This document shows, piece by piece, positions 4,069 to 24,292 of a stretch of DNA of 36,436 nt; position 1 is the first letter of the stretch; each line of letters begins with the position of its first letter. This DNA comes from Candidatus Omnitrophota bacterium. GTDB taxonomy: Bacteria; Omnitrophota; Gorgyraeia; Zapsychrales; Aceulaceae. A program made the translations under genes and the position numbers. The stretch spans positions 1-36,436 of the forward strand of contig JAQUUP010000019.1 of NCBI GenBank assembly GCA_028693815.1, given 5' to 3'. Below the pieces are notes generated by a model, which was given only the letters and a program-made list of their open reading frames with translations, searched no databases and had not been told where the DNA came from.

Positions 4069-4518
4069 CTATTTATTAATAATAAAACTTGGCCCAAGCC
4101 GAACATTCTTATCTAGCTTCCAACAACAGCATGCAACGGTTTTATTTTCTGTTATTTTAATCTCAGCTTCTTTGCCAAGCGCTACTACGGCATGCCAAAC
4201 TTTCTTGCGAATAACAATGGGTCTATCCAGCAAAAAACATTTTATATCTTCAAAATTCTTTTTAAGCGACACAAACAATAAGGCCTTTCCTTTAACAGGC
4301 TCAAAAGTCTCATCAGAAAAAGGATGCTGTTCTAAACGTCCAACGGACTGATCTCTTAATACTAAATATGCTACCCGCCATCCAACTTTAGCTGTCTCCA
4401 CGTGAACAATACGCCAAAGATTACGATTATTTACCTTACTTTCCTTCCCAGGATAACAAATAAGCTTTCCGTATGATTTAAAATTCTGCGCAGTAATTTT
4501 CTTATATGGCTGTGCCAC
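4069..4518 (-). CDS. Ureidoglycolate lyase (AllA)-like cupin
   Basis: The 149-residue protein has the order of motifs of the ureidoglycolate lyase/hydrolase cupin family: F-x-x-YGKLI near the start, then LEQHPFSDETFEP in the middle and VWHAVVALG later. The family releases urea from ureidoglycolate in allantoin breakdown, but no allantoin or purine genes are nearby, so the substrate here is unproven. The start is a GTG at 4518 with GAGG six bases upstream; no ATG fits. It stands alone, 140 bp after the M50-like gene (reading leftward), just downstream of an alcohol dehydrogenase remnant. A related sugar-acid or acyl-specific cupin is the main alternative. Confidence 0.65.
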   Translation of the reverse strand: MAQPYKKITAQNFKSYGKLICYPGKESKVNNRNLWRIVHVETAKVGWRVAYLVLRDQSVGRLEQHPFSDETFEPVKGKALLFVSLKKNFEDIKCFLLDRPIVIRKKVWHAVVALGKEAEIKITENKTVACCCWKLDKNVRLGPSFIINK

Positions 4519-5460: not shown

Positions 5461-5725
5461 TTAAGAATTGTATCTTATGTGTGAAGTGCTTGCAAGAAAT
5501 TACAAATCGATTTTTAAACGTAATAAAGGAAAGGGTTCTAAACTTTAAGAATATGAATGAAGAATACCGGCACGCCTTGGAAAACAGAAAAGATTACACG
5601 CTCTAGCAATTCTCTTTCAATCTACTGATCTTTTCTCTTTGCCTTCACAATGCAAAGAATAAAACATCAACATGCTACATAAGCGGTAGCAAAAAAGGTC
5701 CACACAGTAAAAACTTTCTTATTTA

Positions 5726-6448
5726 TTAAATTTTATCAGACTGGAGAAAATAACATTTAACAGATGAATCATTGGCGGTCAACAACGAAACATCTTCCCA
5801 GGCAATATTCGATTTTCTCTTAATATCAAGAAGCTTCAACTGCCGCATCAGCTCAAAAACTAAACTTTTATTTTCCTTTTGATTTTCTCCTATAAATAAA
5901 ATAAAATCTAATCCACCTAAAATTGCAACATAAGCGCCAACATATTTTAAAAGCTGATAACAAAAAACCTGCTTAGCAAATTTCGCTCTAGGGTCTTTCC
6001 GACTAAAAACATCTTTAAGCCTTGAATGTACACCTGCTAAAGCTTTGAACCCACTCTGAGTAGACAACAAATTCTCAACTTCGGAAACGGACACCCCATC
6101 AGCCATCAACTGAAAAACGATTGTACTATCTATATCCCCACACCCTGTTGCTGACAAAATACCTCCTGCCTCAGAAAAGCCATCACTGAATTCAATCGGA
6201 TTACCATTCTTGACTGCGACAATATTAGTAGATTCACCAATAAAAATTGTAATAATACTACGATTCTTTATTTTTTCAAAATCTTTAATCTTTTGCAATG
6301 CTTTCTGATGAACACCAGATTGTCTACCATGTTTCTTAAAATTCTTTTTTGATAACGAATAAGGAATAGCATATAATTGAGCATACTCAGGCAGGCATGA
6401 AAAAAAAGCATCTTTTTTATTCTTCTTTAAATCACTTTCAAACATCAT
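5726..6448 (-). CDS. Truncated acetate kinase paralogue, probably catalytically dead
   Basis: About 240 residues align with the middle of acetate kinase and with the complete AckA encoded just upstream. KDAFFSCLPEYAQLYAIPYS matches the DTAFH...YALPY region and GCGDIDSTIVFQLM matches the TRSGDIDP block. It lacks the N-terminal phosphate-binding third (N-A/G-G-S-S-S, GHR, LAPLHNP) and stops just before the C-terminal TNEEL-like segment. By alignment, the catalytic His of GFHGTSH is Gln (GRQSGVH) and the Arg of TRSGD is Gly (ATGCGD). It should not phosphorylate acetate. The stop of ackA overlaps its start (ATG 6448, AGGA five bases upstream; ATG 6454 and 6445 are alternatives), so translation is coupled. 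It could be decaying, or a regulatory partner of AckA (inference). Confidence 0.75.
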   Translation of the reverse strand: MMFESDLKKNKKDAFFSCLPEYAQLYAIPYSLSKKNFKKHGRQSGVHQKALQKIKDFEKIKNRSIITIFIGESTNIVAVKNGNPIEFSDGFSEAGGILSATGCGDIDSTIVFQLMADGVSVSEVENLLSTQSGFKALAGVHSRLKDVFSRKDPRAKFAKQVFCYQLLKYVGAYVAILGGLDFILFIGENQKENKSLVFELMRQLKLLDIKRKSNIAWEDVSLLTANDSSVKCYFLQSDKI

Positions 6449-7659
6449 CTGCATCCTTTCAGCAAACGTGCACCCTCAAGACAAATCATCATCTCCTCTT
6501 CAGTTGGCATCGTCACAACAGCAATTTTTGAAGAAGAAGACTGAATTGAAACTGTCTGTTCTCGAGATACTTTTTCATTCTTTTTCTTATCGATAACAAT
6601 ACCTGCCCAACACAGCGACCTACAAACGCTCTCGCGAATCAATGGATTATTAACACCAATATCGTCGGTAAACACCAACGCATCAACCTGACCACCAAGC
6701 ACCATAAGATACCTGCCAATATAACTTTTAAGTCGATTTACATACATATCAAAAGCTAATTGAGCCCTTTTTCCAAACCGCTTATGCCCAAGAAAAGCAA
6801 TAATATCTGTTATATCGCTAGAGAATCCGGATATGCCCAAAAGCCCACTTCTCTTGTTTAATAAATCACTAATTTCCTGAGAATGAAAATCAGAAATCTG
6901 CATTAAGCTAACAACAACCATCGGATCGATATCTCCCGATCTTGTACTCATAATTAACCCAGAATTCGGAGAAAACCCCATCGAAGTATCAACCGAACAT
7001 CCTTTTTTTATTGCAGTAACACTAGCGCCTCCTGTTCCTAAATGACAGACGATCATATTTATTTTTCCAGGACTTTTTTTCAAGAATTCCGATAAATGAC
7101 GACAAACATAAGAACAAGAAATCCCATGGAATCCATAACGACGATATTGGTACTGCTCAATAATTCGCCTTGGAACAGGATAAGTGTATGCCTTAGCTGG
7201 AATCGAAGAATGAAAAGCAGAATCAATAACTGCGTATTGCGGAACTCTAGGAAACATTCTTATTGTCTCTTTAATTATATTCATCGATATAGGGTTGTGA
7301 AGAGGAGCTAAAGGTAAGCATCGTTCCATTCTTTTTAAACTTGTCCGGTCAAGCAAAACCGATCGTTTAAAATATTCTCCCCCATGAACAAACCGATGAC
7401 CGATAGCATCGACCCTAATATTATTTTTATTAATATAATCAACAGCTAAAGCAGTTGCTTTTACATAATCCGAAATTGGAAGAATTTCTTTGGTTGTCTT
7501 ACCATTAAATTGGTTCTCGATATAAGAAGATTTCATACCTTGCCCGCCTACGCGATAAGCTTTCCCTTTTAAAATCAACTCAACGTTACGCGCGCCTTGA
7601 TACTTAAAAATTCTATAGCTCAAAGATGAGCTTCCCCCATTAAATACCAATATATGCAT
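6445..7659 (-). CDS. ackA: Acetate kinase
   Basis: 404 residues, normal for AckA, which makes ATP and acetate from acetyl phosphate and ADP. Key residues are present: N in VFNGGSSS, R in GHRFVHGG, H in LAPLHNP, D in IDSAFH, the first H of GFHGISC, R in STRSGDIDP, and an acidic TEEEMM near the end. Odd points: the second His of the HGTSH motif is Cys, and the FTGGIGEN motif reads FTDDIGVN, so two Gly become Asp and Glu becomes Val. These might alter kinetics or nucleotide preference. The ATG at 7659 is chosen over an in-frame TTG at 7671. It overlaps the pta stop by about 20 bp and the truncated paralogue follows at once, making one pta-ackA-ackA-like operon. Confidence 0.88.
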   Translation of the reverse strand: MHILVFNGGSSSLSYRIFKYQGARNVELILKGKAYRVGGQGMKSSYIENQFNGKTTKEILPISDYVKATALAVDYINKNNIRVDAIGHRFVHGGEYFKRSVLLDRTSLKRMERCLPLAPLHNPISMNIIKETIRMFPRVPQYAVIDSAFHSSIPAKAYTYPVPRRIIEQYQYRRYGFHGISCSYVCRHLSEFLKKSPGKINMIVCHLGTGGASVTAIKKGCSVDTSMGFSPNSGLIMSTRSGDIDPMVVVSLMQISDFHSQEISDLLNKRSGLLGISGFSSDITDIIAFLGHKRFGKRAQLAFDMYVNRLKSYIGRYLMVLGGQVDALVFTDDIGVNNPLIRESVCRSLCWAGIVIDKKKNEKVSREQTVSIQSSSSKIAVVTMPTEEEMMICLEGARLLKGCR

Positions 7660-8641
7660 AATGCTTATCAAAATTAATAAAAATATTGCGTGAATTAGAA
7701 AATTTCTTTTGTGCCCGAATAACGGTCAGAGCCGTACAAGCAATAATATCGTCTACACTACATCCGCGAGATAAATCACTACATGGCTGAATTGTGCCCA
7801 AAATGATCGGGCCAATTGCCCTAGCATTTGCCAGACGTTCAGTCAATTTATAACCAATATTACCTGCATCCAATGTAGGAAAAATTAAAACATTGGCTTT
7901 CCCAGCAACATCACTATCATTCAATTTCCAAGCTGCAACTTCTGGAACAAGAGCGCTATCCGCCTGCAATTCTCCCTCAATAAAGAAATCCTTCTTTAAA
8001 TCCTTAGCGAGCTCAACCGAATTTCTTACCTTGTCAACAAGTTCACCGCTCGCACTTCCTTTTGAAGAAAAGCTTAACATTGCAACCCTCGCTGTCACAT
8101 CCATAACATCCTGAAAAAACTGTGCACTTGAGACAGCAATCCGTGCCAATTGATCACTAGTCGGGTTTGGAATAACGCCACAATCCGCATAAAGCAAAAC
8201 CCCTTCCTCGCCGAAAACACAGTTAGGAACTCCCATTAAAAAACAACTAGTTACAACCCCAATTTTATCATTTAATTCCAAACAATAAAGAACCGCACGC
8301 ATAACCGCTGCGGTTGAATGAGACGCGCCAGCAACCATCCCATCAACAAGTCCGCAGCGCAACATCATTGCGGCATAAAAAAGCGGATCATCCATCAATT
8401 CCTTAGCTTTTTTATAAGTCATTCCTTTGGCCTGTCGAATTTCATAAAGCAAATACGCAAACTGATCTCTTTGAGAAGGATCAATGTTCCTCGATGAAAA
8501 CAAAAGAGGCTCCGCAATTCCCTCTTGACGAATATAATCAACCGCTTTCAAAACTCTATCATCTTCAGCCTCAGGAAAAATAATCCTTTTAGGATCACTT
8601 TTAGCCCGATCCCGAATTTGTTCAATAACTTCTGTGTACAT
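7640..8641 (-). CDS. pta: Phosphate acetyltransferase (short form)
   Basis: The 333-residue protein is the stand-alone catalytic type of Pta, without the DRTGG/CobB-like N-terminus. It converts acetyl-CoA and phosphate to acetyl phosphate and CoA. Landmarks are RIIFPEAEDDRVLKA near the start, DGMVAGASHSTA, FADCG-like LLYADCGVIPNP, VAMLSFSSKGSA and IFPTLDAGNIGYK. AGGAG precedes the ATG at 8641. With AckA downstream it gives substrate-level ATP from acetyl-CoA, as expected for a fermenter or acetate producer. A phosphate butyryltransferase is less likely given the acetate kinase neighbour. Confidence 0.92.
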   Translation of the reverse strand: MYTEVIEQIRDRAKSDPKRIIFPEAEDDRVLKAVDYIRQEGIAEPLLFSSRNIDPSQRDQFAYLLYEIRQAKGMTYKKAKELMDDPLFYAAMMLRCGLVDGMVAGASHSTAAVMRAVLYCLELNDKIGVVTSCFLMGVPNCVFGEEGVLLYADCGVIPNPTSDQLARIAVSSAQFFQDVMDVTARVAMLSFSSKGSASGELVDKVRNSVELAKDLKKDFFIEGELQADSALVPEVAAWKLNDSDVAGKANVLIFPTLDAGNIGYKLTERLANARAIGPIILGTIQPCSDLSRGCSVDDIIACTALTVIRAQKKFSNSRNIFINFDKHYAYIGI

Positions 8642-8733: not shown

Positions 8734-9687
8734 TTAACCATAAAAGCAAGCTTCATTCTTTCCCATCTCTTTGGCCATGCACAAACCAAGATTAGTTTTC
8801 AACAAAAGCTCTTGTGTGCTCATCCCAAGAATATACCGACTTATCCCCATGCTGCAGGTTGCAGCATCTGGAAGCATTGTTTTTTGTAAAGCATCTTTAA
8901 CCTTCTTCGCAATCGACATCGCTTCAGACCTTGTGGTTACTGATAGAATCGCCAAAAACTGATCTCGCGATTGCCGGCAAACAATATCTGTGTCGCGAAA
9001 ATTATTCTTAAAAATTACTCCAGCTTTCTTTAGCAAATCATCACCACTGTCCTGTCCATATTTATCAACAAAACTATGGAAATTATCAATATCTATCATA
9101 ATCGCACATAACGGTTGAAAAAATCGATTCGTACGTTTAACTTCAAAATCTAAACAACGAAGAAAATATTGATAATTGTAAAGTCCCGTCAATGAATCTT
9201 CAAATAAAGAATCTGTCTCCTTCGGGTTCCCAGCGTTACTGCTTATTTGGGAATTTTCTAAAATCTTATTTTCTTCCACTATTTTTTCTTCAGAAAGCTC
9301 TTTCAAAATCCCTTCCACCCCAACAATCTTTCCTTTCTTATTCTTTAAAAAATTACTTTGGGCAGTGATAGCAACCCGACTCCCGTCTCGGCGAACCATT
9401 TGAATTCTATAATCAGAGATAAACCCTTTTTCATTTAAACTTCTTAAAAAAGCAGCTCGGTCATTCCTTTGCAAATAAAATTGATCAGCTAAATTAACAC
9501 CAAGAACATCCTGCTCACTCTCAAAACGAAACATCTCAGCAAATGCTCGATTAGCGAATGAAATATTACCTTCGTTATCTGCAGCGTAAAGACCACTTTT
9601 CATAGAATGAACAATATCATCCAACTCAAATCTTCCTTCTTGATCAAGGCTATTTTTTACTCTTCCTTCTAGATTAATAGGTTCCAT
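8734..9687 (-). CDS. PAS-GGDEF protein with degenerate active site and intact I-site
   Basis: 317 residues, no membrane segment. A PAS domain covers about residues 22-135 (LYAADNEGNISFANRAF; ends IVGVEGILKELSEEK), followed by a linker and a GGDEF domain (about 160-317; DSLTGLYNYQYFL, IDIDNF, CSMGIS). The GGDEF motif itself reads SRDQF (240-244), so cyclase activity should be lost. The c-di-GMP inhibitory site RxxD is kept as RDTD (231-234), exactly five residues upstream. This pattern is known from degenerate GGDEF proteins that act as c-di-GMP receptors. AGGAGGG precedes the start. Being just upstream of pta-ackA in the same direction, it might sense a signal linked to acetate metabolism (inference). 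Confidence 0.85.
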   Translation of the reverse strand: MEPINLEGRVKNSLDQEGRFELDDIVHSMKSGLYAADNEGNISFANRAFAEMFRFESEQDVLGVNLADQFYLQRNDRAAFLRSLNEKGFISDYRIQMVRRDGSRVAITAQSNFLKNKKGKIVGVEGILKELSEEKIVEENKILENSQISSNAGNPKETDSLFEDSLTGLYNYQYFLRCLDFEVKRTNRFFQPLCAIMIDIDNFHSFVDKYGQDSGDDLLKKAGVIFKNNFRDTDIVCRQSRDQFLAILSVTTRSEAMSIAKKVKDALQKTMLPDAATCSMGISRYILGMSTQELLLKTNLGLCMAKEMGKNEACFYG

Positions 9688-9810: not shown

Positions 9811-10362
9811 CTAAAAACTCGGCGGTGTCACAACCCACAAAACCTCTGTTTCTCCTTTATTTAAATTCTTAAAAGAATGTGGCGTATTAGAATTAAAATA
9901 GATGCTATCTCCTTTCTTTAAAGAATAGTATGTATCGCCCAACATAATTTCAAACGCTCCTTTAAGAACCAAAACAAATTCTTGACCATAATGAGAATAA
10001 GAAGATTCCCCAGAGGAAGCATTATTGCTTAACTTAAACAGCAAAGGTTCCATTTGCTTATACGGATTTGATTCAGACAAAAGAGACATCCGTATACCCT
10101 GCCCCACATGTTTAAGCGACTTACGATCACACTCTCTTGTGACAATCTTATTTTTTTGATTAACGTCCTCGCCAACCAAGCTACCTATCGTTGTTTCTAG
10201 CGCATCAGCAATCGACTTTAATGTGGCAAGGGATGGAGAAGCCTTTCCTTTTTCTACTTGGGAAAGAAAACTTGGACTAACGCCTACATCTTTAGCCATC
10301 TCCCTAAGAGTGATCTCTTTCTGATCTCTTAATCTTTTTATATTAATTCCAACACTTTTCAT
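9811..10362 (-). CDS. XRE-family regulator with C-terminal cupin domain
   Basis: 183 residues. The helix-turn-helix is at the N-terminus (about 5-60: IKRLRDQKEITLREMA, VSPSFLSQVEKGKASPSL) and a cupin_2 domain at about 105-180 (SHYGQEFVLVLKGAFEIMLG, YFNSNTPHSFKN), the MerR-unrelated SinR/PuuR-like XRE-cupin architecture. Such proteins sense a small metabolite in the cupin and repress nearby genes or their own. The start is the ATG at 10362, with GAGG upstream. Longer in-frame starts up to 10407 are excluded because a good -35/-10 promoter lies in that stretch. It precedes the PAS-GGDEF/pta/ackA block and may regulate it (inference). Confidence 0.88.
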   Translation of the reverse strand: MKSVGINIKRLRDQKEITLREMAKDVGVSPSFLSQVEKGKASPSLATLKSIADALETTIGSLVGEDVNQKNKIVTRECDRKSLKHVGQGIRMSLLSESNPYKQMEPLLFKLSNNASSGESSYSHYGQEFVLVLKGAFEIMLGDTYYSLKKGDSIYFNSNTPHSFKNLNKGETEVLWVVTPPSF

Positions 10363-10673
10363 TTTTAACCTCAGTTTTAATATATGACAAAATCTATTTC
10401 TTGTCAATCATTACTTAATTTCTATATTGCATATTAAGTATTAATTAACAATTACAAAATTTAACAAAATTCTTAACCCTGAGCATTTAAAAAGATCTTA
10501 AAAAGTAATATCTAGCAACAATTAAAAACGTTGAATAATTCTGTTCTTTTAGTAAAATAAAATTTTTATATTTTTGATACTCTATTTTTATAACACCAAA
10601 ACAAGCTCAAGGCTCAATCTAGAATTCGCACCATGACATTTATGACTCTTGATCAAAACACTGATTTCTTCTA
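10363..10673. other. Intergenic region between rlmK-like and XRE-cupin genes
   Basis: This 311-bp AT-rich stretch holds the XRE promoter (10379-10407) and a second inverted repeat, TACTTAAT (10412-10419) with ATTAAGTA (10433-10440), just upstream of the -35. Beyond 10445 I see no gene, hairpin terminator or repeat; the rest, out to the stop codon of the rRNA methyltransferase at 10674, is featureless. Confidence 0.5.
10379..10407 (-). promoter_or_regulatory. sigma70-type promoter of the XRE-cupin gene, with inverted repeat
   Basis: On the - strand, TTGACA (10402-10407) is separated by exactly 17 bp from TATATT (10379-10384), giving a start point about 10 bp before the ATG at 10362. The spacer is bounded by the inverted repeat TGACAA...TTGTCA (10385-10406), well placed for repression by the XRE protein itself (inference). 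Confidence 0.75.
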
Positions 10674-11919: not shown

Positions 11920-12585
11920 TTACAATAACTCTCTATGATGCTTAATGACTTTAGCATTAATCATATAAATTACATCTTCTGCTATGGCCGCAGCATGATC
12001 ACAAATTCTCTCTAAATCACGAGCAACCAAAAGAAGGGCAACGGCTTGAGTCACCATTGCACTATCTTTTATCATGTGTTCGTCAATCAATTCTCTGATA
12101 ATAACCGTTCGCAATCTGTTTGACTCTTTATCAGAAAGAATAACTTGTTTAGCTAATTCCTGATCATGATTTACAAAAGAGTCTATTGAATTCTTAACCA
12201 TTAACTTTGCCTGATTAGCTAATTTTACAATATCCAACAACGACTTTGGTAAAGGCTGACCAGATGACTCTAAAACCCTTTGTGAAATATTTACTGTTAA
12301 ATCTGCCATTCTTTCGAGTTCAGTGTTTATATGCATTCCTGTCGTAATCAAACGAAGATCACATGCAAGAGGCTGAAATAATGCAAAAAGGTCGATCACT
12401 TCCTCCTCAATCTTTATCTCCATATCATCGATCTTTTTATCATTATCAATAACAGAAAGCGCCTGCTTCTTATCATGTTTCTTAAGAGCTTCGACAGATT
12501 TATGTATCGCCTCTTCTACCATTGCTGCCATCTTTAGAATATCTATATTCAGTTTCTTTAATTCATCATCAATATTTCTTTTCAT
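11920..12585 (-). CDS. phoU: Phosphate signalling protein PhoU
   Basis: 221 residues forming two PhoU helical repeats (about 5-105 and 110-215). Typical metal-binding/charged motifs are visible, such as DKKIDDMEIKIEEE and DLRLITTGMHINTELERMAD in the first repeat, and VARDLERICDHAAAIAEDV in the second. PhoU couples the Pst transporter to the PhoR kinase and keeps the Pho regulon off when phosphate is plentiful. It lies 2 bp after pstB and is the last gene of the pst operon, followed by a strong terminator. Confidence 0.95.
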   Translation of the reverse strand: MKRNIDDELKKLNIDILKMAAMVEEAIHKSVEALKKHDKKQALSVIDNDKKIDDMEIKIEEEVIDLFALFQPLACDLRLITTGMHINTELERMADLTVNISQRVLESSGQPLPKSLLDIVKLANQAKLMVKNSIDSFVNHDQELAKQVILSDKESNRLRTVIIRELIDEHMIKDSAMVTQAVALLLVARDLERICDHAAAIAEDVIYMINAKVIKHHRELL

Positions 12586-12587
12586 AT

Positions 12588-13427
12588 TTAACCAAACCTT
12601 CCCGTAACGTAATCTTCTGTAATTTTTTTTGCAGGATTTGTAAAAATCTTATTTGTAAAATTATATTCAACCAACTCGCCTAGCATAAAAAATGCGGTAT
12701 AGTCTGAAACGCGTGCCGCCTGTTGCATATTATGCGTAACAATAATAATCGTATATTTCTTTTTTAACTCATGAATTAATTCTTCTATCTTGCCAGTAGC
12801 AATCGGATCTAACGCTGAAGCAGGCTCATCTAACAATAATATCTGAGGTTCAATGGCAAGAGCGCGTGCAATACATAATCGCTGCTGCTGTCCTCCCGAC
12901 AAAGAAAACGCACTTTCATTTAGCCTATCTTTTATCTCATCCCACAAAGCAGCATCTTTGAGACTCTTTTCAACTTTCTCTTGAATTAAATCCTTATTTT
13001 TTACCCCATTAATTCTTAAACCATATGCTACGTTTTCAAAAATAGACTTTGGAAAAGGATTTGACTTCTGAAAAACCATACCAACTTTACGTCTTAAATC
13101 AACCACATCCAAATCTTTATCAAAAATATTATTCTCATCTATAAAAATACCACCCTCATATTTTATCTTATGAATAATATCGTTCATCCTATTAAAACAT
13201 CTTAAGAATGTTGATTTTCCGCAGCCAGAAGGCCCTATGATTCCCACAACTGTATTAGACCTTATTCCCATATTAATATTTTTAAGTGCATGAGTTTTAT
13301 CATAGAAAAAATTAAAATTCTCTACGACTATCTTAATCGCATTGTTTTCTATATCTTTATTAATATAGCTAGCTTTCAAACCATTATTCTTTAATTTAAA
13401 TACGTTTTCCTCTGTTATCGTCGTCAT
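12588..13427 (-). CDS. pstB: Phosphate ABC transporter ATPase PstB
   Basis: 279 residues, including an N-terminal extension of about 30 relative to the usual 250. Walker [11 protein letters not shown]-loop [12 protein letters not shown] (the NPFP typical of PstB), signature LSGGQQQR, Walker [14 protein letters not shown] and switch [13 protein letters not shown] are all present. It powers high-affinity phosphate import with PstC and PstA. Its ATG overlaps the pstA stop (13424-13427), so translation is coupled. Confidence 0.96.
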
Positions 13428-14278
13428 TCCATCCTAACCTTTCTTAACTTATATCTCAATATTACTGCAAAAAGATTCATGCAAAAAACAAGGCCAATTA
13501 AAACCAACGCCGTTCCATAAGCTAATGGCCTTACTTTCTCAATCGCATGATGTTGTGTTGACATAATATAAAGATGATACGGCAATGCCATAAATTGATC
13601 CGAAAGAGATCTCGGCAAAAAAGGCAAATAGAATGCAGCTCCAGTAAATAAAATCGGCGCTGTCTCTCCTGCTGCTCGAGCTAAGCCAAGAATAGTTCCG
13701 GTAAGCATTCCCGGGACAGCATAAGGTAAAACATTTGTCCGGATAGTTTGCCACTTAGTGGCACCAAGAGCCAACGACCCTTCTCTATATGATTTAGGCA
13801 CGCCTTTCAGCGCCTCTTCACTTGCTGTAATTGTCCACGGCAAAGTCATAAGTCCTAAAGTTAATCCTGCAGACAATACCGAAGCATTTAATTTCATCAA
13901 CTGCACAAACAAAACAACTCCAAACAAGCCATAAACAATCGAAGGAACTCCGGATAAATTACGGATAGACATTCTTATCAATCGCGTTATTTTCCCTTTT
14001 GTAGCATATTCGCTCAAATAAATAGCACATCCCATGCCTAACGGAACTGCCAAAATAGCTGTAATGGTCGTAACGAGAAATGTTCCAAATATTGCTGGCA
14101 AAATTCCACCCTCTGTCATTCCATTTGTTGGCATTTGGCTTAAGAATTCCCAGCTTATTACGCTCTTTCCTTTAGAAATAATATCGTAAAGAATAAACCC
14201 AACAATAAATAAAACAACAACAAGGCATCCCCTTAACAGCCCAAATCCTATAGCTTGCTCAATGTAATTTTTTTTCAT
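13424..14278 (-). CDS. pstA: Phosphate ABC transporter permease PstA
   Basis: About 284 residues with six membrane helices and the PstA-type ABC permease core: [26 protein letters not shown], and the EAA loop [24 protein letters not shown], where the ATPase docks. I chose the ATG at 14278 ([11 protein letters not shown]). An in-frame TTG at 14299 would place the start inside a hairpin. Neither has a good ribosome-binding site, so translation may depend on readthrough coupling or on the structured leader at 14294-14347. Confidence 0.93.
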
Positions 14279-14293
14279 CGATGTACTTTTTTC

Positions 14294-14347
14294 CGCCAAA
14301 ATCTTTGATTTTGGCGAGATCTCGCCAACTTTAGCATAAAGTTGGCG
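14294..14347. repeat. Compound palindrome between pstC and pstA
   Basis: Three overlapping palindromes fill 54 bp: a hairpin with 9-10-bp arms at 14294-14316 (CGCCAAAAT...ATTTTGGCG), the perfect 14-base palindrome GGCGAGATCTCGCC at 14313-14326, and a hairpin with 11-bp arms at 14323-14347 (CGCCAACTTTA...TAAAGTTGGCG). The middle one excludes the outer two, so two alternative folds are possible. There is no T-run. It ends 16 bp before the pstA ATG. It could be a REP-like repeat unit or an intra-operon control structure. Confidence 0.85.
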
Positions 14348-14370
14348 GACATATATATAATTTATTCATA

Positions 14371-15237
14371 TTATCTATTCACCTGTTCGTATTTATGCAA
14401 AATAATATCAGATGCCATATTAACAAAAAATGTAATGATAAATAATACCAACCCTAAAGCAAATAACGCATAATAATGAGTCGTATTGTAGGCAACTTCT
14501 CCCAGCTCAATGGCTATACTCGAAGTAAGGGTTCTTACCGGCCCAAGTATGCTTTCTGGCATAGCAGGAGCACAGCCCGTTGCCATCAAAACGGTCATTG
14601 TTTCTCCAATCGCTCTTCCCATTCCAAGCATACAAGCAGCAATAATACCCGATAATGCAGCTGGAACTTTTACTCGAATAACAGTTTGCCATTTCGAAGC
14701 TCCTAAAGCCAAAGAAGCCTGCTCGTAAGAACTTGGCACACTACTTAATGCATCCTCAGAGATGCTAACAATAGTCGGCAAAGCCATGACAGCCAAGAGC
14801 ACAGCACCATTAATAGCATTCAGCCCGTTATGAGTATGAAATATCTTTGCCAAAAGCGGCCCAACAAGAACGATCCCTAGAAAACCAAGAACAACAGATG
14901 GTATTCCAGCTAAAATTTCAACAATAGGTTTGGCGATTTCTCTTACCCTCCGACTAGCGACATCTGACAAATAAGCAGCTGTTCCAACGCCTAAGGGTAT
15001 CGCAATAAGTAATGCTCCAACAGTAACAATAAGTGTGCTTACTAACATTGGAACGATGCCGTATTGCTCTTCCACATACGATGTCGGATTCCAAACAGAC
15101 CCGAACAAGAAAGACCATACATTAATTTCCTGAAACGCCGGTATGGAGGTAAAAATTAATAACGCAAAAATACCTAAAAGCGCAACAACTGAAATCATGC
15201 CGTTTGCAAAGAAAAAGCCGTGGATAAGCTTTTCCAT
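14371..15237 (-). CDS. pstC: Phosphate ABC transporter permease PstC
   Basis: About 288 residues, six membrane helices. PstC marks are VWSFLFGSVWNPTS, IPLGVGTAAYLSDVASRRV, EILAGIPSVVLGFLGIV, and the EAA loop ALSSVPSSYEQASLALGASKWQTV, followed by GRAIGETMTV. I chose the ATG at 15237 (MEKLIHGFF), directly before the first helix. An in-frame TTG at 15291, 8 bp after the pstS stop, would add 18 residues, and neither start has a convincing ribosome-binding site. The ATG lies in the loop of an inverted repeat (15218-15258). Confidence 0.92.
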   Translation of the reverse strand: MEKLIHGFFFANGMISVVALLGIFALLIFTSIPAFQEINVWSFLFGSVWNPTSYVEEQYGIVPMLVSTLIVTVGALLIAIPLGVGTAAYLSDVASRRVREIAKPIVEILAGIPSVVLGFLGIVLVGPLLAKIFHTHNGLNAINGAVLLAVMALPTIVSISEDALSSVPSSYEQASLALGASKWQTVIRVKVPAALSGIIAACMLGMGRAIGETMTVLMATGCAPAMPESILGPVRTLTSSIAIELGEVAYNTTHYYALFALGLVLFIITFFVNMASDIILHKYEQVNR

Positions 15238-15258
15238 AAGTCTTAAACTTATCCACGG
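15218..15258. repeat. 11-bp inverted repeat around the pstC ATG
   Basis: CCGTGGATAAG (15218-15228) and its exact reverse complement (15248-15258) flank a 19-base loop that contains the probable pstC start codon (15235-15237). If transcribed, the hairpin would place the start region in its loop. It encodes a KPWIS/KLIHGF stretch if the longer TTG start is used. Not a terminator, as no T-run follows. Confidence 0.75.
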
Positions 15259-15298
15259 TTTCTTTCTATTTCGAACAATATTGTTTAGCAAAATAAAT

Positions 15299-16171
15299 TT
15301 ACAATCCTGCCTTACTGTTATATTCTACATATTCACCTGGAAGCTGAAAAAAACCTTGCTTTTCAACTTCTTTCTGTCCTTGCGGACTTAATTCGAACTC
15401 TAGAAAAGCCTTTACTTCGCCTGTAGGCGTTCCATTAATATATTGATTTAAAGGACGTGAAATAGGATACTTTCCGCTCTTTACATCTGCCTCACTCAGT
15501 GGATTAGCATAAGCAGCACCAGCCATAGAAGCAACCTTTAGCACGTTAATACCGCTCGCATCTTTTACGTACCCTACACCTACATAACCTATGCCTGATT
15601 GATCCTGCTTTACAGCTTCCACTATTTGTGCATTTCCATTCATTCGATTCATTTTCTGAGAATAATCACCTTTTAATACAGACTCCTGGAAAAACACAAA
15701 TGTTCCTGAGTTTGATTGACGACCATAAAGCGTTATAGACATGTTCGGTCCACCAACTTCACTCCAATTCGTAACTTCACCTCTAAAAATTCTACCGATC
15801 TCATCTACAGTAAGCTGATTAACAGAATTATTTCCGTTTGTGATTACGCTTAGCCCATCCATGGCAACAACAACTCTCTTAACCTTAACTCCATTTTTTG
15901 ATGCCTGCTCTACTTCTTTTGCCTTCATTTGCCTAGAAGCATTAGCTATGTCACATTTACCGTTAATTAATGCTGCGATACCTGTTCCAGAGCCTCCTCC
16001 AGTAACTGCAATATATTTACCTGGATTTTGAGCCATATATTCTTCAGCTAATGCCTGAACAAGATTAATTAAAGTGTCTGACCCTTTGATCTGAATCATG
16101 TCCTCGGCATAAACGCTTGTAGCACACATCAAAAATGCAACAAACAATGATAAAATTAAAAATCGTTTCAT
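15299..16171 (-). CDS. pstS: Periplasmic phosphate-binding protein PstS
   Basis: About 290 residues. A Sec signal peptide (MKRFLILSLFVAFLMC... cut near VYA-ED) is followed by the PstS fold with phosphate-contact motifs IKGSDTL, GGGSGTGIAAL and GRQSNSGTFVFF. It delivers phosphate to PstC/PstA. The ATG at 16171 has AGGAGA upstream; the longer frame to 16228 would run into the promoter. A four-repeat PHO box and -10 lie directly upstream, giving a leader of about 28 bases. Confidence 0.95.
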   Translation of the reverse strand: MKRFLILSLFVAFLMCATSVYAEDMIQIKGSDTLINLVQALAEEYMAQNPGKYIAVTGGGSGTGIAALINGKCDIANASRQMKAKEVEQASKNGVKVKRVVVAMDGLSVITNGNNSVNQLTVDEIGRIFRGEVTNWSEVGGPNMSITLYGRQSNSGTFVFFQESVLKGDYSQKMNRMNGNAQIVEAVKQDQSGIGYVGVGYVKDASGINVLKVASMAGAAYANPLSEADVKSGKYPISRPLNQYINGTPTGEVKAFLEFELSPQGQKEVEKQGFFQLPGEYVEYNSKAGL

Positions 16172-16205
16172 ATATCTTCTCCTTACCTTTATTTTATTTA
16201 AATAA

Positions 16206-16260
16206 ATTATATTATTATAATGTGACAAACATGTGACAACAACGTTAACTCTTTGTTAAT
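16206..16260 (-). promoter_or_regulatory. PHO box and -10 of the pstS operon
   Basis: Read on +, GTGAC at 16222 and 16233 and GTTAA at 16244 and 16255 repeat with an exact 11-bp period. On the - strand these are TTGTCAC-type PhoB half-sites (known consensus CTGTCAT, 11-bp period). The -10 TATAAT lies at 16206-16211, 10 bp from the nearest half-site, which is the arrangement of PhoB-activated promoters without a -35. Same geometry as at 17923-17976 and 20544-20597. Confidence 0.85.
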
Positions 16261-16265
16261 CTTAA

Positions 16266-17543
16266 TTAAAACTTAAATAACACATCTGCCTGAATCAAAT
16301 GCTGTGTATTGCTTGTACTTCCATTAATAGGATGCATATTGTAATAATCTAGGCCAAGAATAACATTTTTCTTGATTGCATAAGACCATGCAACTTCGTG
16401 ACCAGCAACATTTGTTTCTCCACCATAAGCATCAGAGTCTGGGAAAATATCTAACCAAGCATCTGTTTCAAGGTGACGATAACAATATTTAATTTGCCAG
16501 CTACCTGGATTCTTAATTTTCTTATCTCCAAATTTCATACCAGCAAGATATCCTTTATTATTATCACTAGGATCTGGATTATAAATATAATTTCCAAAGA
16601 AACTGATTGCTTCAATAGCGATCGGAAGATCTATTCCTTCAAATGGATTGCTAATTTTAAGTTCAACTGTAGGATTAACCGTATTGTAATCATACACTAA
16701 ACCTGTACTGTTTCCTGTGTTCGTTTTAGCTGAGTTATCAAAAGTTTTTCCTTCAAGACCTGTAAATCCATAATAGGCAACAGCACCTTTCAGGCTGATC
16801 TTCTCACCAACCTTAGAACCAACACCTACCTGGGCATAATACATCGCAGGGTCAGCAGCTGAGCCCTTCTCTACAGCAGATGTATTATATTCAAACATAG
16901 GAAAAACACCTGCGTTTAAGAATCCGTCTAACATGCCAACTGAATGAGTTGCCGAAACGGCAATACCATCTGGGTTGATATCTCCATCCCAAAGAAGGTC
17001 ATCTGTTTGCCAAAGAACTGGCTTTCGTGCAAATCGTCCGACATAAATATCTACGCTGGAAAGCGGAGAATATTTGGCATATGCATAGTCTAGACGAATA
17101 TCTGGCGTCTCAAACTCTTGACCCATCGTCTGGTTTGTTGATCGAGGATCTGCTCCACCTGTAGCCAAACCAAAACCGACTTCTACTTGATCAGCCACAT
17201 CTGTTGTCACGCCTAAACGAAAACGATATCTCCCACGGCTTCGATTGTATTTAGCTTGGCCTTTATCAGCGGCTTTTGATTCATATTGATAACGAACACG
17301 CAAATCACCTTTAAGCTTCATCTTCTGAACCCATTCAGGTAATGCATAAGATTTATGCTCAGCTATCTCTTTCGCAACTTCCTGTTTCGTTTCATCCAAA
17401 ATTATTTCTGCCTCCATAGGAGTCAGAATATTTTTTTGAACTAACTTGTTCACCAAAATATCGATCTCTCCTGCAGATGAACTTGAAGAACAAGCCCCAA
17501 ATACGATTGCTCCTAAAAACAATGCTAAAAAAAACTTCTTCAT
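16266..17543 (-). CDS. Putative phosphate-starvation outer-membrane porin (Porin_5-like)
   Basis: About 425 residues. A signal peptide (MKKFFLALFLGAIVFGAC) is followed by a short helical region (IDILVNKLVQKNILTPMEAEIIL) and then a beta-barrel: KMKLKGDLRVRYQYES, many alternating strands, and a terminal F (ADVLFKF), as needed for BAM recognition. FGAC could act as an atypical lipobox, unusual for a porin; cleavage after SSSA is the alternative. AGGAGA precedes the ATG at 17543. Placed between phoR and pstS downstream of a PHO box, it probably lets phosphate or polyphosphate cross the outer membrane, like OprP/PhoE, but it is not their homologue by eye (function is inference). Confidence 0.8.
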   Translation of the reverse strand: MKKFFLALFLGAIVFGACSSSSSAGEIDILVNKLVQKNILTPMEAEIILDETKQEVAKEIAEHKSYALPEWVQKMKLKGDLRVRYQYESKAADKGQAKYNRSRGRYRFRLGVTTDVADQVEVGFGLATGGADPRSTNQTMGQEFETPDIRLDYAYAKYSPLSSVDIYVGRFARKPVLWQTDDLLWDGDINPDGIAVSATHSVGMLDGFLNAGVFPMFEYNTSAVEKGSAADPAMYYAQVGVGSKVGEKISLKGAVAYYGFTGLEGKTFDNSAKTNTGNSTGLVYDYNTVNPTVELKISNPFEGIDLPIAIEAISFFGNYIYNPDPSDNNKGYLAGMKFGDKKIKNPGSWQIKYCYRHLETDAWLDIFPDSDAYGGETNVAGHEVAWSYAIKKNVILGLDYYNMHPINGSTSNTQHLIQADVLFKF

Positions 17544-17691
17544 CTTTTTCTCCTTTTTTAATAAAGACATTGTTACGAAAATAAAACCAGCGTAAACAAT
17601 CTCTCCTAATTAATCTTAACCTTTTTCAAAATAAAAAATAAACTCTGATGAAAGCTCATGCTCACCGTAGTTCCACAAGCTATATCATCAT

Positions 17692-17895
17692 TTAATTTTC
17701 ATCAATAAACTTTCTAATTTGCTTAAAATCTATCTCTGCTTTTTTCATAGTCTCTTTGACGTATTCGTCACTATAACTATGATTTTTTTCAATAATGTTT
17801 AAAATATTATTCAATGCTGCAATTTCAGATCGTAGCCAATTAACTACAAAATCTACATTAATTGCATTAGATTTAATCATCTGACTCAGTACCAT
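17692..17895 (-). CDS. Small helical protein in the Pho regulon, unknown function
   Basis: 67 residues, predicted all-helical and cytoplasmic, with no recognised domain: MVLSQMIKSNAINVDFVVNW at the start and a Lys/Glu-rich end KKAEIDFKQIRKFIDEN. It is likely real because it has an excellent ribosome-binding site (GAGGAGG) and a PHO-box promoter about 20 bp upstream with the same geometry as pstS and phoB. It may be co-transcribed with the porin 148 bp downstream. A role in phosphate homeostasis or Pho signalling is inferred only from this control. Confidence 0.7.
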   Translation of the reverse strand: MVLSQMIKSNAINVDFVVNWLRSEIAALNNILNIIEKNHSYSDEYVKETMKKAEIDFKQIRKFIDEN

Positions 17896-17922
17896 TATTC
17901 ACCTCCTCTCTTTCTTAAGAAG

Positions 17923-17976
17923 AGTATAATTCTATAAGGTGAAAATAAAATGGCTGCTCTGTGAAATGATTGTGAA
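17923..17976 (-). promoter_or_regulatory. PHO box and -10 of the small gene/porin unit
   Basis: Read on +, GTGAA at 17939, 17961 and 17972 and a weaker ATGGC at 17950 lie on an exact 11-bp ladder. The -10 (TATACT on -) is at 17923-17928, 10 bp from the nearest half-site, exactly as before pstS. The start codon follows at 17895 with GAGGAGG between. Confidence 0.78.
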
Positions 17977-17997
17977 TTTGATTTTAATAAGACTAGT

Positions 17998-19782
17998 TTA
18001 AGCTTTGGGAAGAGTAAAACTAAACATGGTTCCTTTTCCTAGTTCGCTTTGAACGGAAATCTGTCCTTTATGCGACTGAACAAGGTGTTTTGCTATGGAA
18101 AGCCCGAGACCGGTTCCGCCTAGCTCGCGTGATCTCGCTTTATCGACTCGATAAAAACGTTCAAAAATGCGAGGTAAATCTTCTTCAGGTATTCCAATTC
18201 CATTATCTTTTATACTCACTTCAACAAAATCATTTCTTTCAGCTACAGATATGGTTATCAACCCTTCATCATTATTATATTTGATAGCATTATCGATTAA
18301 ATTCAGAAAAACCTGCATAATACTTTTTTCATCTGCTTTTATTTTTGATAAATTGTTAGGAATATTCTTTTTTATGACAATTTTTCCTTCCCTGATCTGC
18401 TTCCTCAAGCTAACGATAACCCTATCAACAATATCCTCAATATTGCAAGACACAATATTCAAATTAGTTTTGCCTGACTCTATCCTTGATAAATCTAAAA
18501 GATCGTCGACAAGTTGAGCCAAGCGATTAGCATCCGCATTAATAGTTTTGAGAAAATCTTTGGCATTTTCTTTGTCCTCTATTGCTCCATCTAGCAATGT
18601 TTCTGAAAATCCCTTTATATTCGTGATAGGAGTTCTAAGCTCATGAGAAACATTAGCCACAAAATCTTTTCTGATATTTTCAAGCCGCCTTAATTCAGTA
18701 ATATCATGAAAAACCAACACCGCGCCAAAAATCTCGTTGTCCCTCATAACGGTAGCCGCATGAACCTGTAATGTTCTTTCTGAGGGCTGCAAGATATTGA
18801 TCTCCCCAGATTGCACGCCACTTTTTAAATCTAAAACCTTATCAGCTATTTCTTGAATCTCAATATTTCTGATAACTTCCAAGGGTCGTCTCCCTATTGG
18901 GCTTTCAGATACATTCAACATTTTCTTAAGAGTATTATTCATAAGCTTTATAGACCCGTTATTATCAATAACAATAACTCCCTCGAACATACTCAAAAGT
19001 ATCGCCTCAAATCTAGACTTATTTGCCTCAACCTCACTTATCCTTGCTTTAATCTGCTCAGACATGTAATTTATCGAGCTGCTCAACTCTCCTATTTCAT
19101 CATTTGTAAATATATTAATTCGCCTTGAATAATCTCCACTTGATATCTTTTTAGCCACAGCTGAAATCTTTTTTAAAGGATTGGAAATATAAATAGAAAC
19201 TATAAAGCCGATGAGAACTGAAAAACCAAAAGCAATGATCAAAGAAACGCCTAATATTTTCTTTAATTTATTAGTCACAACTGCTATCTCGCTTAATGGA
19301 ACTGCAAGTCGAATAACTCCACTTGTCTTATCGTTCTGAAAAAGACAAGACATGTAAAGCATGTCTTCTTGTAGAGTTGTGCTAAATCGCCTACTTTCTC
19401 CTAGTCCTGTTTTTAATGCCTCCTGAACTTCAGGTCTGTACAAATGATTTTCCATGTCGGCAAGATCTGTGCCTGATAACTCAGAATCGCCTAAAACCTT
19501 TCCGCTTGAGTCAATCAAAGTCACTCTAAGACCTAAATCTTTTCCTATTTGATCTGCAATTTCATCAGTTTTTTCTATGGATAATAACTTAGAATGGCGA
19601 CTATCGAAGTAAGATTTGGCAAGAAGCACCTCTCTCGAAAGACTGCTTTTAATTCGATTGTAGGTATTATCTTGTAAATTATTCTTTAAATAGATATAAA
19701 CAAAAGAAAGGATAAAAATATTAATTACAATAATAATTAGTGTGAGCTTATATTGAATAGGGAGCCTAATTTTATTCATCAT
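17998..19782 (-). CDS. phoR: Phosphate-sensing histidine kinase PhoR
   Basis: 594 residues. Domains in order: membrane helix (about 12-32), periplasmic/extracytoplasmic sensor (about 33-172), helix (about 176-200), HAMP (about 200-250), PAS (about 255-365), HisKA with phospho-acceptor H380 in NVSHELRTP, and HATPase_c with [20 protein letters not shown], and GTGLGLSI. This is the large PhoR/WalK-like layout of Gram-positives and many anaerobes rather than the short E. coli PhoR. It phosphorylates PhoB under phosphate limitation, with PhoU and Pst giving the sensing input. The start overlaps the phoB stop by 11 bp. Confidence 0.92.
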
Positions 19783-20461
19783 TATTTAAGCAATAGCCAT
19801 AGCCTCTAACCGTCTCAATTAATTTTCCAAGTTTACCTAATTTTTGGCGTAAGCGCTTTATATGTGTGTCAATTGTTCTTGTTGTCACATCTGAACTCAA
19901 TCCCCACACATCCTCTAAAAGCTGATCTCTAGACTGAACTCGTCCTTTTCTAGACATCAAAGTTTCTAAAAGCTTAAACTCCATTGCTGTCAGCTTGACT
20001 TCCTTATTTCTAACTTTTACCTTATGGCGAGGCTTATCAATCACAATTTCTTTAAATTCAAAAATATCTTTTTCTGACTCCTCTGGGATTCCTCTTTTTA
20101 ATATAGCTTTGACTCTTAAAACCAACTCTCTTGGACTAAAAGGCTTTACAATATAATCATCTGCCCCAAGCTCAAATCCGATAATGCGATCAACTTCTTC
20201 CCCTTTTGCTGTTAACATAACAACTGGAATTGAAGCTGTTCTTTTGTCCTGCTTGATTTGTTTACATGTTTCTAATCCATCCATTTTAGGCAACATGATA
20301 TCTAAAATGATCAAATCAACAGGCTGCGTATCTAAAATATCCAACGCCTCTTCACCAGTAATAGTTGATTGACAGCTAAACCCGGCTTTTTCTAAATTAT
20401 ACCTCACAAGCTTCGAGATATTTTTATCATCTTCAACTATTAGGATATTTTTATTCGGCAT
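19772..20461 (-). CDS. phoB: Phosphate response regulator PhoB
   Basis: 229 residues: receiver domain (1-120) with acidic pocket EDD (10-12), phospho-acceptor D54 in [14 protein letters not shown]84 and K106 in VKPFSPREL, then an OmpR-type winged helix (about 130-225; [33 protein letters not shown]). It binds 11-bp direct repeats and recruits RNA polymerase. A PHO box of its own lies upstream (20544-20597), so it likely activates itself. Confidence 0.93.
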
Positions 20462-20747: not shown

Positions 20748-22079
20748 CTAGCGATCACTCCATAATTCTATTAAAGAATTATTCATAACAGCACTTTTAG
20801 GAAGCAATTTTATAAAATTCTGGCGTAAACTATAGGTATAAGATCCTTGCGTTGGAATCATTAAAACATCACCAACTTCAATACCTTTTCCAAAATATGA
20901 AAAACCCCAAATATCATGCGGAGTACAAAGCGATCCAAACACCATGCAGGGCTTTTCCTCTAAAGAAGGTTGACTTAAGTTAATAACAGGAAAATAATCG
21001 ATCTCAAAACGCTCCCACCCAATCATGTTGGTGCCACCATCAGTAACAACAACATCTTTATCCTTTTTATCGATGACCTCTAATAAAATATGCATAACTT
21101 CATGACTAATCCATCGTCCAGGCTCTAAATAAATATCGCAATCTATATATTTAAATATGTGTTGATCAAGCGCGTCAGCAAGATCCTGAGCAAATTCTTC
21201 AATTGATATTGAAGGCAAGCATCGATGATCCATCCCCTCGCTCATCTGAGGAACGAGACATTGCTTTAATTTTCCCTCAGGAGTTGAGCTTGGTTGCATC
21301 CACTCGCCCTGGGCAGGCCAATAACCTCCACCAACATCAACAAAATCAATTTCTTGAACAACTGATTTGTCCATTTGCAAAAAAGCCTTACCCAAGCGCT
21401 CAAGAAAAGCAATCTGCTTATTTGCATCAAGATTCCAGCTCGAATGAAACTGCAATCCGCATAGTTCAACATGAGAACATTCTTTCGCTTTACCAAAGAA
21501 ACAATCTAATTTATCCAGAGGAACGCCAAACTTTCTCCATAAACCGTTTTCTTCATTCATTAAGCGAACACCTGCTTTTATTTTTATATCTTTTCTACAA
21601 GCTACCTTTTGAAGACGATCTAATTCGCCAAAGCTGTCAAGAAGAACAGTGACGACCTTAGAATGATGACATGCAAACTCAAGCTCAAAATCCGTTTTTC
21701 CTGGTCCGCTAAAAATAACCGACTTTGGATTATATTTCACCGCACATCTCAATTCTTCTGCGCTTGAAACATCTATTCCGTACCCCTCTTCAACAAGAGT
21801 TTCAATCATAACAGGATGATTATTGCTTTTCATCGCATAAAAAAATGACACCTGTGAAATTCTGCTCTTAAAAGCCCTATAAAATTCCTGCGCCTTACTT
21901 CTTAACGCCAACTGATCAAAAAGATACAATGGAGATCCTTTTTCTCTACAAACATCAAGATAGTCATTTTTCTTTTTTAAATATTTATCGACAAAAGCAC
22001 ACAGCGCTTCTTTATCCATCAATGGCGTTTTAATTCTTAAGATTTCTTGAGCTTTATCTAAATATTCTTGTTCATCCAT
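20748..22079 (-). CDS. Fold-III PLP-dependent decarboxylase (LysA/ornithine-DC family)
   Basis: 443 residues with the alanine-racemase-like barrel and C-terminal beta domain of group IV decarboxylases. K84 in YAMKSN is the PLP lysine, H212 in LQFHSSW stacks on the cofactor, VGGGY (249-253) and EPGR (319-322) bind the phosphate, and C385 in GSLCTPHD is the catalytic Cys of the partner subunit. It should be active. The substrate is not clear: relatives act on meso-diaminopimelate, ornithine/arginine, carboxyspermidine, or, in natural-product and siderophore pathways (SbnH, BtrK-like), on ligase products. It is the last gene of a tight operon with an ATP-grasp ligase, an acyltransferase and a SpeD-like protein, which favours a special pathway over lysine synthesis (inference). 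Confidence 0.85.
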   Translation of the reverse strand: MDEQEYLDKAQEILRIKTPLMDKEALCAFVDKYLKKKNDYLDVCREKGSPLYLFDQLALRSKAQEFYRAFKSRISQVSFFYAMKSNNHPVMIETLVEEGYGIDVSSAEELRCAVKYNPKSVIFSGPGKTDFELEFACHHSKVVTVLLDSFGELDRLQKVACRKDIKIKAGVRLMNEENGLWRKFGVPLDKLDCFFGKAKECSHVELCGLQFHSSWNLDANKQIAFLERLGKAFLQMDKSVVQEIDFVDVGGGYWPAQGEWMQPSSTPEGKLKQCLVPQMSEGMDHRCLPSISIEEFAQDLADALDQHIFKYIDCDIYLEPGRWISHEVMHILLEVIDKKDKDVVVTDGGTNMIGWERFEIDYFPVINLSQPSLEEKPCMVFGSLCTPHDIWGFSYFGKGIEVGDVLMIPTQGSYTYSLRQNFIKLLPKSAVMNNSLIELWSDR

Positions 22080-22082
22080 ATA

Positions 22083-23378
22083 TTATTCTATCTCAACAAT
22101 CAGTTTCTGCGACAACTCTATACATTGGTCTTCAACTGACTTATCCAAATCTGGCTTAAAAATAACATATCCTAATATTCGTGTATCATAATCTTCAGGA
22201 GGAAGCTTAATCATGTCGCCCTTGGCACACCTTAAGCGACACTCTACGACTCGCGAATCACTATCAATAGCTTTCGCGTCAATCATTTTTACAATACCAC
22301 ATTTCGTCGCAATTAAATGAAGACCAACAACGCGATCCCAACATTCATCATCAGGAATAACAACCAATTTTCTTTCTGCAAAATCAAGAGCTGCTTTTAA
22401 GATATCAAACCCACAACTCGCCTTGATAAGCGGCGGCAAACAATCCCCTCCTGGCCGAGGAGTTACTTCTAGCAAAAAAACCTGATTATTATGCACCTTA
22501 AAATCCGCCATAACCATGCTGGATTTAATGCCTAAGGCATGCGATGCTTTTAAAAGAATTTCTTTTACCTTCTTAAGATCAAAACCTTTGGGAAGCTTTG
22601 CTGGCAACTCGTAAGCTAAGATCGTTCCAAAGTCAGATTGTGGCAAATAATATTTTCTTGTTAAACGGATAAGCTGAAGAGTTTGCCCCTTTACGATAAA
22701 ATCACAACTATATTCCAAACCAGGAATATACTGCTCCATAAGTATAACTTTTCTAGGATCTTCTGTTTTCGGCATATGTCGAGAAGTGTACATCCCATTG
22801 TTACTATGCCTTCTAAGTTTATCAAAAACAATCTTACATGACTCATGACATTTATCCTGATCTTCGCAATAATAAACAAGCTCGCTTCCACTGCCCGTAA
22901 GAGGCTTGACAACCACCGGTCCGCTAATAGAGTCAAAAGACTTTAAGACGTCATTCTCGCTATAAACCAATACCGCATCTGGACAAACAACACCATTCTT
23001 TTTCCAAATATTTTTAGAAAGAAACTTCGAACGACAATTGATGAGTGTCTCGATATTTGAGAAAGATAGACCAAATTGCTGTGCAACAACAGAAGCAAGA
23101 GTTAACGATTCACAATCAAAGCAAGCAATGCCTGAAAACTTAATGTTATTTGTACGAACATAATCTTTTAAGCTATTAACAACAGCAGATTGATCTTGAA
23201 GATCAAGAATAATTTCTGACGATAGGTCAACTTCAGATTGATTATATTTTGCCCCTTCCTCAATGTCCGTGACAAAAAAAACTCTCTTAGGATATCGTTC
23301 TTTCAATAACCCAACGTAATCAATCGTAGTGCCAACAACTAAAATTCTTTTTTTCTTAAGCAATTTTAGCCTCATCAA
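22083..23378 (-). CDS. ATP-grasp ligase, probably amino acid/amine ligase
   Basis: 431 residues. N-terminal Rossmann-like region (KRILVVGTTIDYVGLL; IACFDCESLTLASVVAQQFG), then an ATP-grasp core with GPVVVKPLTGSGSELVYY, EQYIPGLEYSCDF, and the Mg-binding motif FLLEVTPRPGGDCLP. The carbamoyl-phosphate synthase/BL00235-like ATP-grasp enzymes activate a carboxylate as acyl phosphate and join it to an amine. The C-terminus (about 330-431) is the small domain seen in L-amino acid ligases. The gene is 3 bp upstream of the PLP decarboxylase start and overlaps the acyltransferase gene by 23 bp, so product flow between these enzymes is likely. Substrates unknown. Confidence 0.85.
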   Translation of the reverse strand: MMRLKLLKKKRILVVGTTIDYVGLLKERYPKRVFFVTDIEEGAKYNQSEVDLSSEIILDLQDQSAVVNSLKDYVRTNNIKFSGIACFDCESLTLASVVAQQFGLSFSNIETLINCRSKFLSKNIWKKNGVVCPDAVLVYSENDVLKSFDSISGPVVVKPLTGSGSELVYYCEDQDKCHESCKIVFDKLRRHSNNGMYTSRHMPKTEDPRKVILMEQYIPGLEYSCDFIVKGQTLQLIRLTRKYYLPQSDFGTILAYELPAKLPKGFDLKKVKEILLKASHALGIKSSMVMADFKVHNNQVFLLEVTPRPGGDCLPPLIKASCGFDILKAALDFAERKLVVIPDDECWDRVVGLHLIATKCGIVKMIDAKAIDSDSRVVECRLRCAKGDMIKLPPEDYDTRILGYVIFKPDLDKSVEDQCIELSQKLIVEIE

Positions 23379-24291: not shown

Positions 24292-24292
24292 A

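Follow-up and report, generated by a model that had tools for sequence, protein, structure and literature searches.

An acetate kinase with pyrophosphate-type motifs and its co-inherited, catalytically dead paralogue in a class of Omnitrophota

The analyzed stretch of DNA, hereafter the window, is 36,436 nucleotides long and comes from a Candidatus Omnitrophota bacterium (contig JAQUUP010000019.1, assembly GCA_028693815.1). A cluster of genes on its minus strand encodes, in order, an XRE-cupin regulator, a PAS-GGDEF protein, the phosphotransacetylase Pta and two members of the acetate kinase (AckA) family, which we call A and B (Table 1). The start codon of A is read from the sequence as the ATG at 7659. 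B starts 10 nt inside A at an ATGA junction, and its frame stays open for 242 codons, in agreement with the first-pass annotation, which had described about 240 open codons and a start overlapping the ackA stop.

Table 1. Features of the A-B cluster in the window.
Feature	Position	Strand	Evidence
B: AckA paralogue, catalytically dead, reduced to domain II, 242 aa	5726..6454	-	Open frame, Pfam, alignment, model
A (ackA): acetate kinase with pyrophosphate-type motifs, 404 aa	6445..7659	-	TIGR00016, motifs, tree
Overlap of A stop and B start, ATGA junction	6445..6454	-	25/27 pairs abut or overlap, all within 3 nt
A PHOSPHATE2 motif CHLGTGG, with one extra glycine	7028..7047	-	Sequence motif
pta, phosphotransacetylase, overlapping the A start	7640..8641	-	TIGR00651, 315.8 bits (cut-off 311.2)
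PAS-GGDEF protein gene	8734..9687	-	Equivalent position in relatives L085-L087 (domains named for L085; L086 and L087 judged by length only)
XRE-cupin regulator, likely first gene of the cluster	9811..10365	-	Domain match, comparison with relatives
Terminator-like hairpin 3' of B	5673..5691	-	Single one found; not above chance

B resembles acetate kinase over only part of the family profile. Its match to Pfam Acetate_kinase (PF00871) is confined to profile positions 148-385 of 392 (E 2e-34; 119.4 bits, cut-off 22), and it falls below the TIGR00016 cut-off (110.6 bits vs 293.4). In an alignment with M. thermophila AckA, His180 is replaced by Gln, Arg241 by Gly, Asn211 by Glu, His208 by Phe and Glu384 by Lys, and no residue stands opposite Arg91 or His123. 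Of the catalytic residues expected of an active acetate kinase (Asn7, Arg91, His123, Asp148, His180, Arg241, Glu384), none is aligned and kept. The first-pass annotation was thus right that the N-terminal third and the C-terminal Glu segment are missing, and that the catalytic His and Arg have become Gln and Gly. The open frame is nevertheless more than chance, since a second family of the order shows conservation of the frame at 46% across 230 aa, and only 1/20000 simulated copies remained open after 40% random substitution. A start-codon artefact was considered for the short B and excluded, since the overlap of its start with the end of A leaves no space for domain I.

Losses of this kind extend to B proteins from other genomes. 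In the alignment, Asn7, Ser12, His208, Gly212, Arg241 and Glu384 are missing from all or nearly all B, and this, together with the absence of half of the active site from the window B, makes it highly improbable that B itself catalyzes a reaction with another substrate. What speaks for such a function is that His180 is retained in 14 of 27 B, and that many B of a second group of pairs (group 2; the window belongs to group 1) keep both Arg91 and the His180 motif.

The part of B that remains is the dimer domain, and the phosphate loops have been erased. In S. typhimurium AckA, segments of domain II and the insertion at 150-180 are described as forming the dimer interface (PMC3475010), and the short form of B spans approximately AckA residue 150 to the end of domain II. 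In an AlphaFold model of the window B, with a mean pLDDT of only 60, residues 34-242 match AckA residues 156-385 (Z 11.9 to 1g99, rmsd 4.3, 185 aligned). A model of a full-length B (from G055) has pLDDT below 50 across most of domain I and is uninformative about that domain. Columns conserved in both A and canonical AckA are retained by B to 72% in the interface insertion (~150-180), 39% in domain II and 24% in domain I, percentages that rest on few columns (7, 39 and 22, respectively). Residues of the interface pocket are altered in B, with Met228 kept in about 4% and Leu or Met taking the place of Lys310 in 22 of 27.

The gene upstream of B had been taken for an ordinary ackA. Its product does score above the TIGR00016 cut-off (376.6 bits vs 293.4), but it carries a pyrophosphate-type signature, with CHLGTGG in PHOSPHATE2 and FTDD in ADENOSINE, the two sequence features sought for that type. 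The extra PHOSPHATE2 glycine is present in all A read, and in each of the 24 aligned A, Asn211 is replaced by Thr or Ser, Gly239 by Ser or Asn and Gly331 by Asp or Ser. All 24 also keep the general catalytic residues other than those of the donor site, as expected of an active acetate kinase. Group 1 A have in addition lost Lys14.

Features at PHOSPHATE2, Asn211, Gly239 and ADENOSINE are those by which the cited accounts distinguish the Pi/PPi enzyme of Entamoeba histolytica (EhACK; PPi-forming, 4h0o, EC 2.7.2.12) (PMC5517563, PMC4390882). EhACK shares with A the extra PHOSPHATE2 glycine, Thr at Asn211, Ser at Gly239 and Asp in ADENOSINE, and with group 1 A the loss of Lys14. It uses Pi/PPi and has a longer PHOSPHATE2 loop, and the single loop-shortened variant reported was inactive (PMC5517563). 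The same source gives four Anaerolineaceae sequences, putative PPi-type ACKs, as the only longer-loop sequences identified besides those of Entamoeba; like the window A, they combine the extended loop with Asp-Asp in ADENOSINE (PMC5517563). EhACK differs from A in the Gln-Met that occludes its adenosine pocket. The window A has Asp-Ile at this position, and A enzymes generally carry Asp-Ile (or Ser-Leu), which counts against a Pi/PPi reading of the A-B pair; the Anaerolineaceae sequences likewise carry Asp here. Moreover, E. coli ACK variants given Entamoeba residues are reported to have gained no PPi use (PMC5517563), so the motifs are no proof of the donor. Judged from its residues, A probably transfers phosphoryl between acetyl phosphate and Pi/PPi and not ADP/ATP.

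To survey the distribution of A, we scanned 384 genomes of the class and 384 of the phylum (overlapping draws) with a degenerate motif of the longer PHOSPHATE2 loop, CHLG[T/S]GG; it matched in 30 and 28 of them, respectively. Among 34 pattern loci, 27 (in 27 genomes) encode AckA, and the remaining 7 do not and were rejected. B lies directly downstream of A on the same strand in 26 of these 27 Omnitrophota loci, the last being truncated by a contig edge, and 25 of 27 junctions abut or overlap. A 28th genome (G048) also has the pair, with an assembly gap in its B. As far as they could be read, all B in the 26 paired loci are open. The pairs are spread over 13 families of the class, and no pair occurs in the 57 phylum genomes outside it, where two pattern matches were found, neither of them AckA. 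Of the 16 best second-copy matches in the class, 15 are A-B pairs, and the other is a B located where its contig begins. Canonical AckAs that occur singly in the class have HLGNGCS in 11 of 11 read, out of 12 such loci, one of which (L060) yielded no passing ORF. In two loci (L090, 927-2137; L093, 927-2161), the A frame is broken into two overlapping or neighboring frames and B is open; the break may be either assembly error or decay.

Within the order of the window, 10 of 81 genomes have AckA-family genes. Six carry A with an adjacent B (G000, G011, G017, G027, G048, G055), three carry a single canonical AckA and no B, and one has a weak match inside a long ORF. At 6 of 81 genomes, the pair is patchy in the order and therefore dispensable. 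The first-pass annotation had named absence from close relatives as a sign of neutral decay, and B is indeed absent from two genomes of the window's genus (G001, G002). However, A is missing along with B from these two and from a further genome of the family, so the pair is present or absent as a unit. Beyond the phylum, an archaeal match (L037) proved to be a chance frame antisense to another ORF, tblastn against plasmids gave only matches below 60% identity (38-42% in the 15 matches listed), and a scan of viral contigs found nothing.

Phylogenetic analysis indicated that the pairing is old. In a 66-row tree, from which four partial or broken A (G360, G471, G294, G383) and the gapped B of G048 were left out, B formed one clan (100/99). 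A and the E. histolytica enzyme together formed another (99/95), as expected from a common origin, and EhACK grouped with the window-type A of group 1 (100/98). Trees of A and B built from 23 pairs had 15 of 20 splits in common, compared with a mean of 0.22 and a maximum of 2 after permutation, although one A split with support of 100 is missing from the B tree. Pairwise distances were correlated (r 0.95), with B evolving 1.9 times faster. In four close pairs of full-length B, dN/dS was 0.13, 0.12, 0.05 and 0.10, about the same as for A in the last three of these pairs (0.125, 0.05 and 0.11), all at dS of 1 to 3.7, near saturation. The comparison of the window B with that of G011 is saturated (pS 0.79, pN 0.34), and its differences by codon position (0.40, 0.30 and 0.61) follow the pattern of a coding gene; for the window's own short B, conservation suggests selection. 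B is thus an ancient paralogue, co-inherited with A and under purifying selection in its full-length relatives.

These results separate the two fates that the first-pass annotation had offered for B, a pseudo-kinase regulator or late decay after tandem duplication. The analysis supports a pseudo-kinase partner. A decaying remnant of a recent duplication would account for the loss of domain I and of catalytic residues, the faster rate, and the absence of B, together with A, from genomes of the same genus. We nonetheless regard it as very improbable, given the single old clan, the pairing at 26 of 27 loci across many families, dN/dS near 0.1 in full-length relatives, where neither relaxed selection nor the broken frames of a pseudogene were seen, and a truncation that converged on one domain boundary. 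Most genomes have a full-length B; the short form occurs in G000, G011, G017, G099 and G048. Monophyly of four short B rows was rejected (AU p 0.003 on the B tree and 0.0001 on the A tree), which implies at least two independent losses of domain I. Truncation therefore came later and more than once, in a non-catalytic paralogue that was already old, and the B proteins provide a natural series of pseudoenzymes, from full length down to a single domain.

The explanation we lean toward, by a modest margin over even chances, is that A and B together make up a heteromeric acetate kinase, probably one that uses Pi/PPi, with B as its non-catalytic subunit. A, with its general catalytic residues and Entamoeba-type motifs, would exchange phosphoryl groups between acetyl phosphate and Pi/PPi; together with the Pta encoded in this operon, it could convert acetyl-CoA and phosphate to acetate and PPi, if this is the direction in which the pathway runs. 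B would fill the second place of an AckA-type dimer through domain II and might stabilize or regulate A; in the window lineage, it would have shrunk to this dimer domain. Canonical AckA (PF00871), which shares its fold and family with both A and B, is a textbook homodimer of two active subunits that makes ATP, whereas B is without an active site. An instructive parallel is provided by TsaD and TsaB, which both have ASKHA folds. Like A and B, these proteins (YgjD and YeaZ) are an enzyme and a truncated paralogue, and they are described as a heterodimer (PMC4330362). B, too, is a truncated, inactive paralogue co-inherited with an enzyme, and by analogy it may act on A as TsaB does on TsaD. The systems differ in that TsaD-TsaB serves another pathway, that B has retained domain II, and that the A-B heterodimer is putative.

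The donor used by A is a separate matter from its partnership with B. Possibly, though we hold this to be rather unlikely, A is still an ATP/ADP acetate kinase with B as a non-catalytic subunit, its odd motifs being merely an adaptation to B. Every TGG-type A of the phylum with readable flanks does have a B, and the PPi type of the Chloroflexi relatives is only putative in print (PMC5517563). Set against this, identical motifs occur in the Pi/PPi-using Entamoeba enzyme, which falls in one clan with A. H+-pyrophosphatase and the PFK family gave no discrimination, as they occur in 11/12 and 12/12 genomes with and without the pair; being equally common without it, they count against the Pi/PPi reading. 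One PFK of the window's genome has a GGDD motif, which we take to be of the PPi type.

More tentatively, and at rather less than even chances, a two-subunit, PPi-forming acetate kinase may be widespread in one class of Omnitrophota with its ancient dead paralogue as an obligate part, and the Entamoeba enzyme may descend from the catalytic half and work without the partner. EhACK differs from A in this respect, since A is encoded together with B and the cited accounts of EhACK describe no second subunit (PMC5517563, PMC4390882). In the open-access literature, our searches turned up no description of acetate kinase with a partner paralogue. If the heteromeric reading is right, a conserved AckA with a dead partner and pyrophosphate-type motifs would constitute a heteromeric acetate kinase, and a type of PPi acetate kinase proven only in an amoeba would have a wider bacterial reach. 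The ATP yield would also be altered relative to that assigned to Pta-Ack in published Omnitrophota models (PMC10066038).

Gene neighborhoods bear on a further alternative. The order and tight coupling of A and B are constant, while their other neighbors vary and include pta, a FolE2-like gene and a YgeY-like hydrolase gene; neighbor domains were named for few loci, with the remainder judged by length and place. In the window type, pta precedes A. In the other branch of group 1, a FolE2-like gene lies 3' of B in the two loci named by Pfam, and in the group 2 loci examined, an XRE-cupin gene and a YgeY-like M20 hydrolase gene precede A. B could be a separate AckA-derived ligand sensor or inhibitor, forming no stoichiometric enzyme with A and reporting or limiting acetyl phosphate or PPi, for example through regulators of the operon. 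XRE-cupin genes in the window-type and group 2 clusters and the PAS-GGDEF gene of the window type are compatible with such a role, ASKHA folds have been turned into regulators elsewhere, and ROK repressors are among the fold matches of the window B model. We consider a sensor unlikely, if somewhat less so than an ATP-dependent A, as the A-B order and coupling stay fixed when other neighbors change, and as B retains the dimer domain with its phosphate loops erased.

The FolE2-like GTP cyclohydrolase genes lie closely 3' of B (L068, 6666-7454; L072, 4899-5681), with scores under the NCBIfam cut-offs. The YgeY-like M20 hydrolase gene overlaps the A start in L075 (2960-4180), L080 (7340-8557) and L074 (8232-9473), and the acyl substrate of group 2 pairs may not be acetate. 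Elsewhere on the minus strand of the window, a ureidoglycolate lyase-like protein (4069-4518; 29.8 bits, cut-off 23) is encoded downstream of B and an ABC ATPase gene, and a polyamine-like cluster (20751-24718) comprises a PLP decarboxylase, an ATP-grasp protein, a GNAT protein and S-adenosylmethionine decarboxylase. Upstream of the pta-A-B operon, also on the minus strand (11920-20461), lie genes for PhoU, PstB, PstA, PstC, a PstS-like protein, a porin, a PhoR-like kinase and a PhoB-like regulator, and a phosphate link between this Pst-PhoU/two-component cluster and the putative Pi/PPi enzyme is possible.
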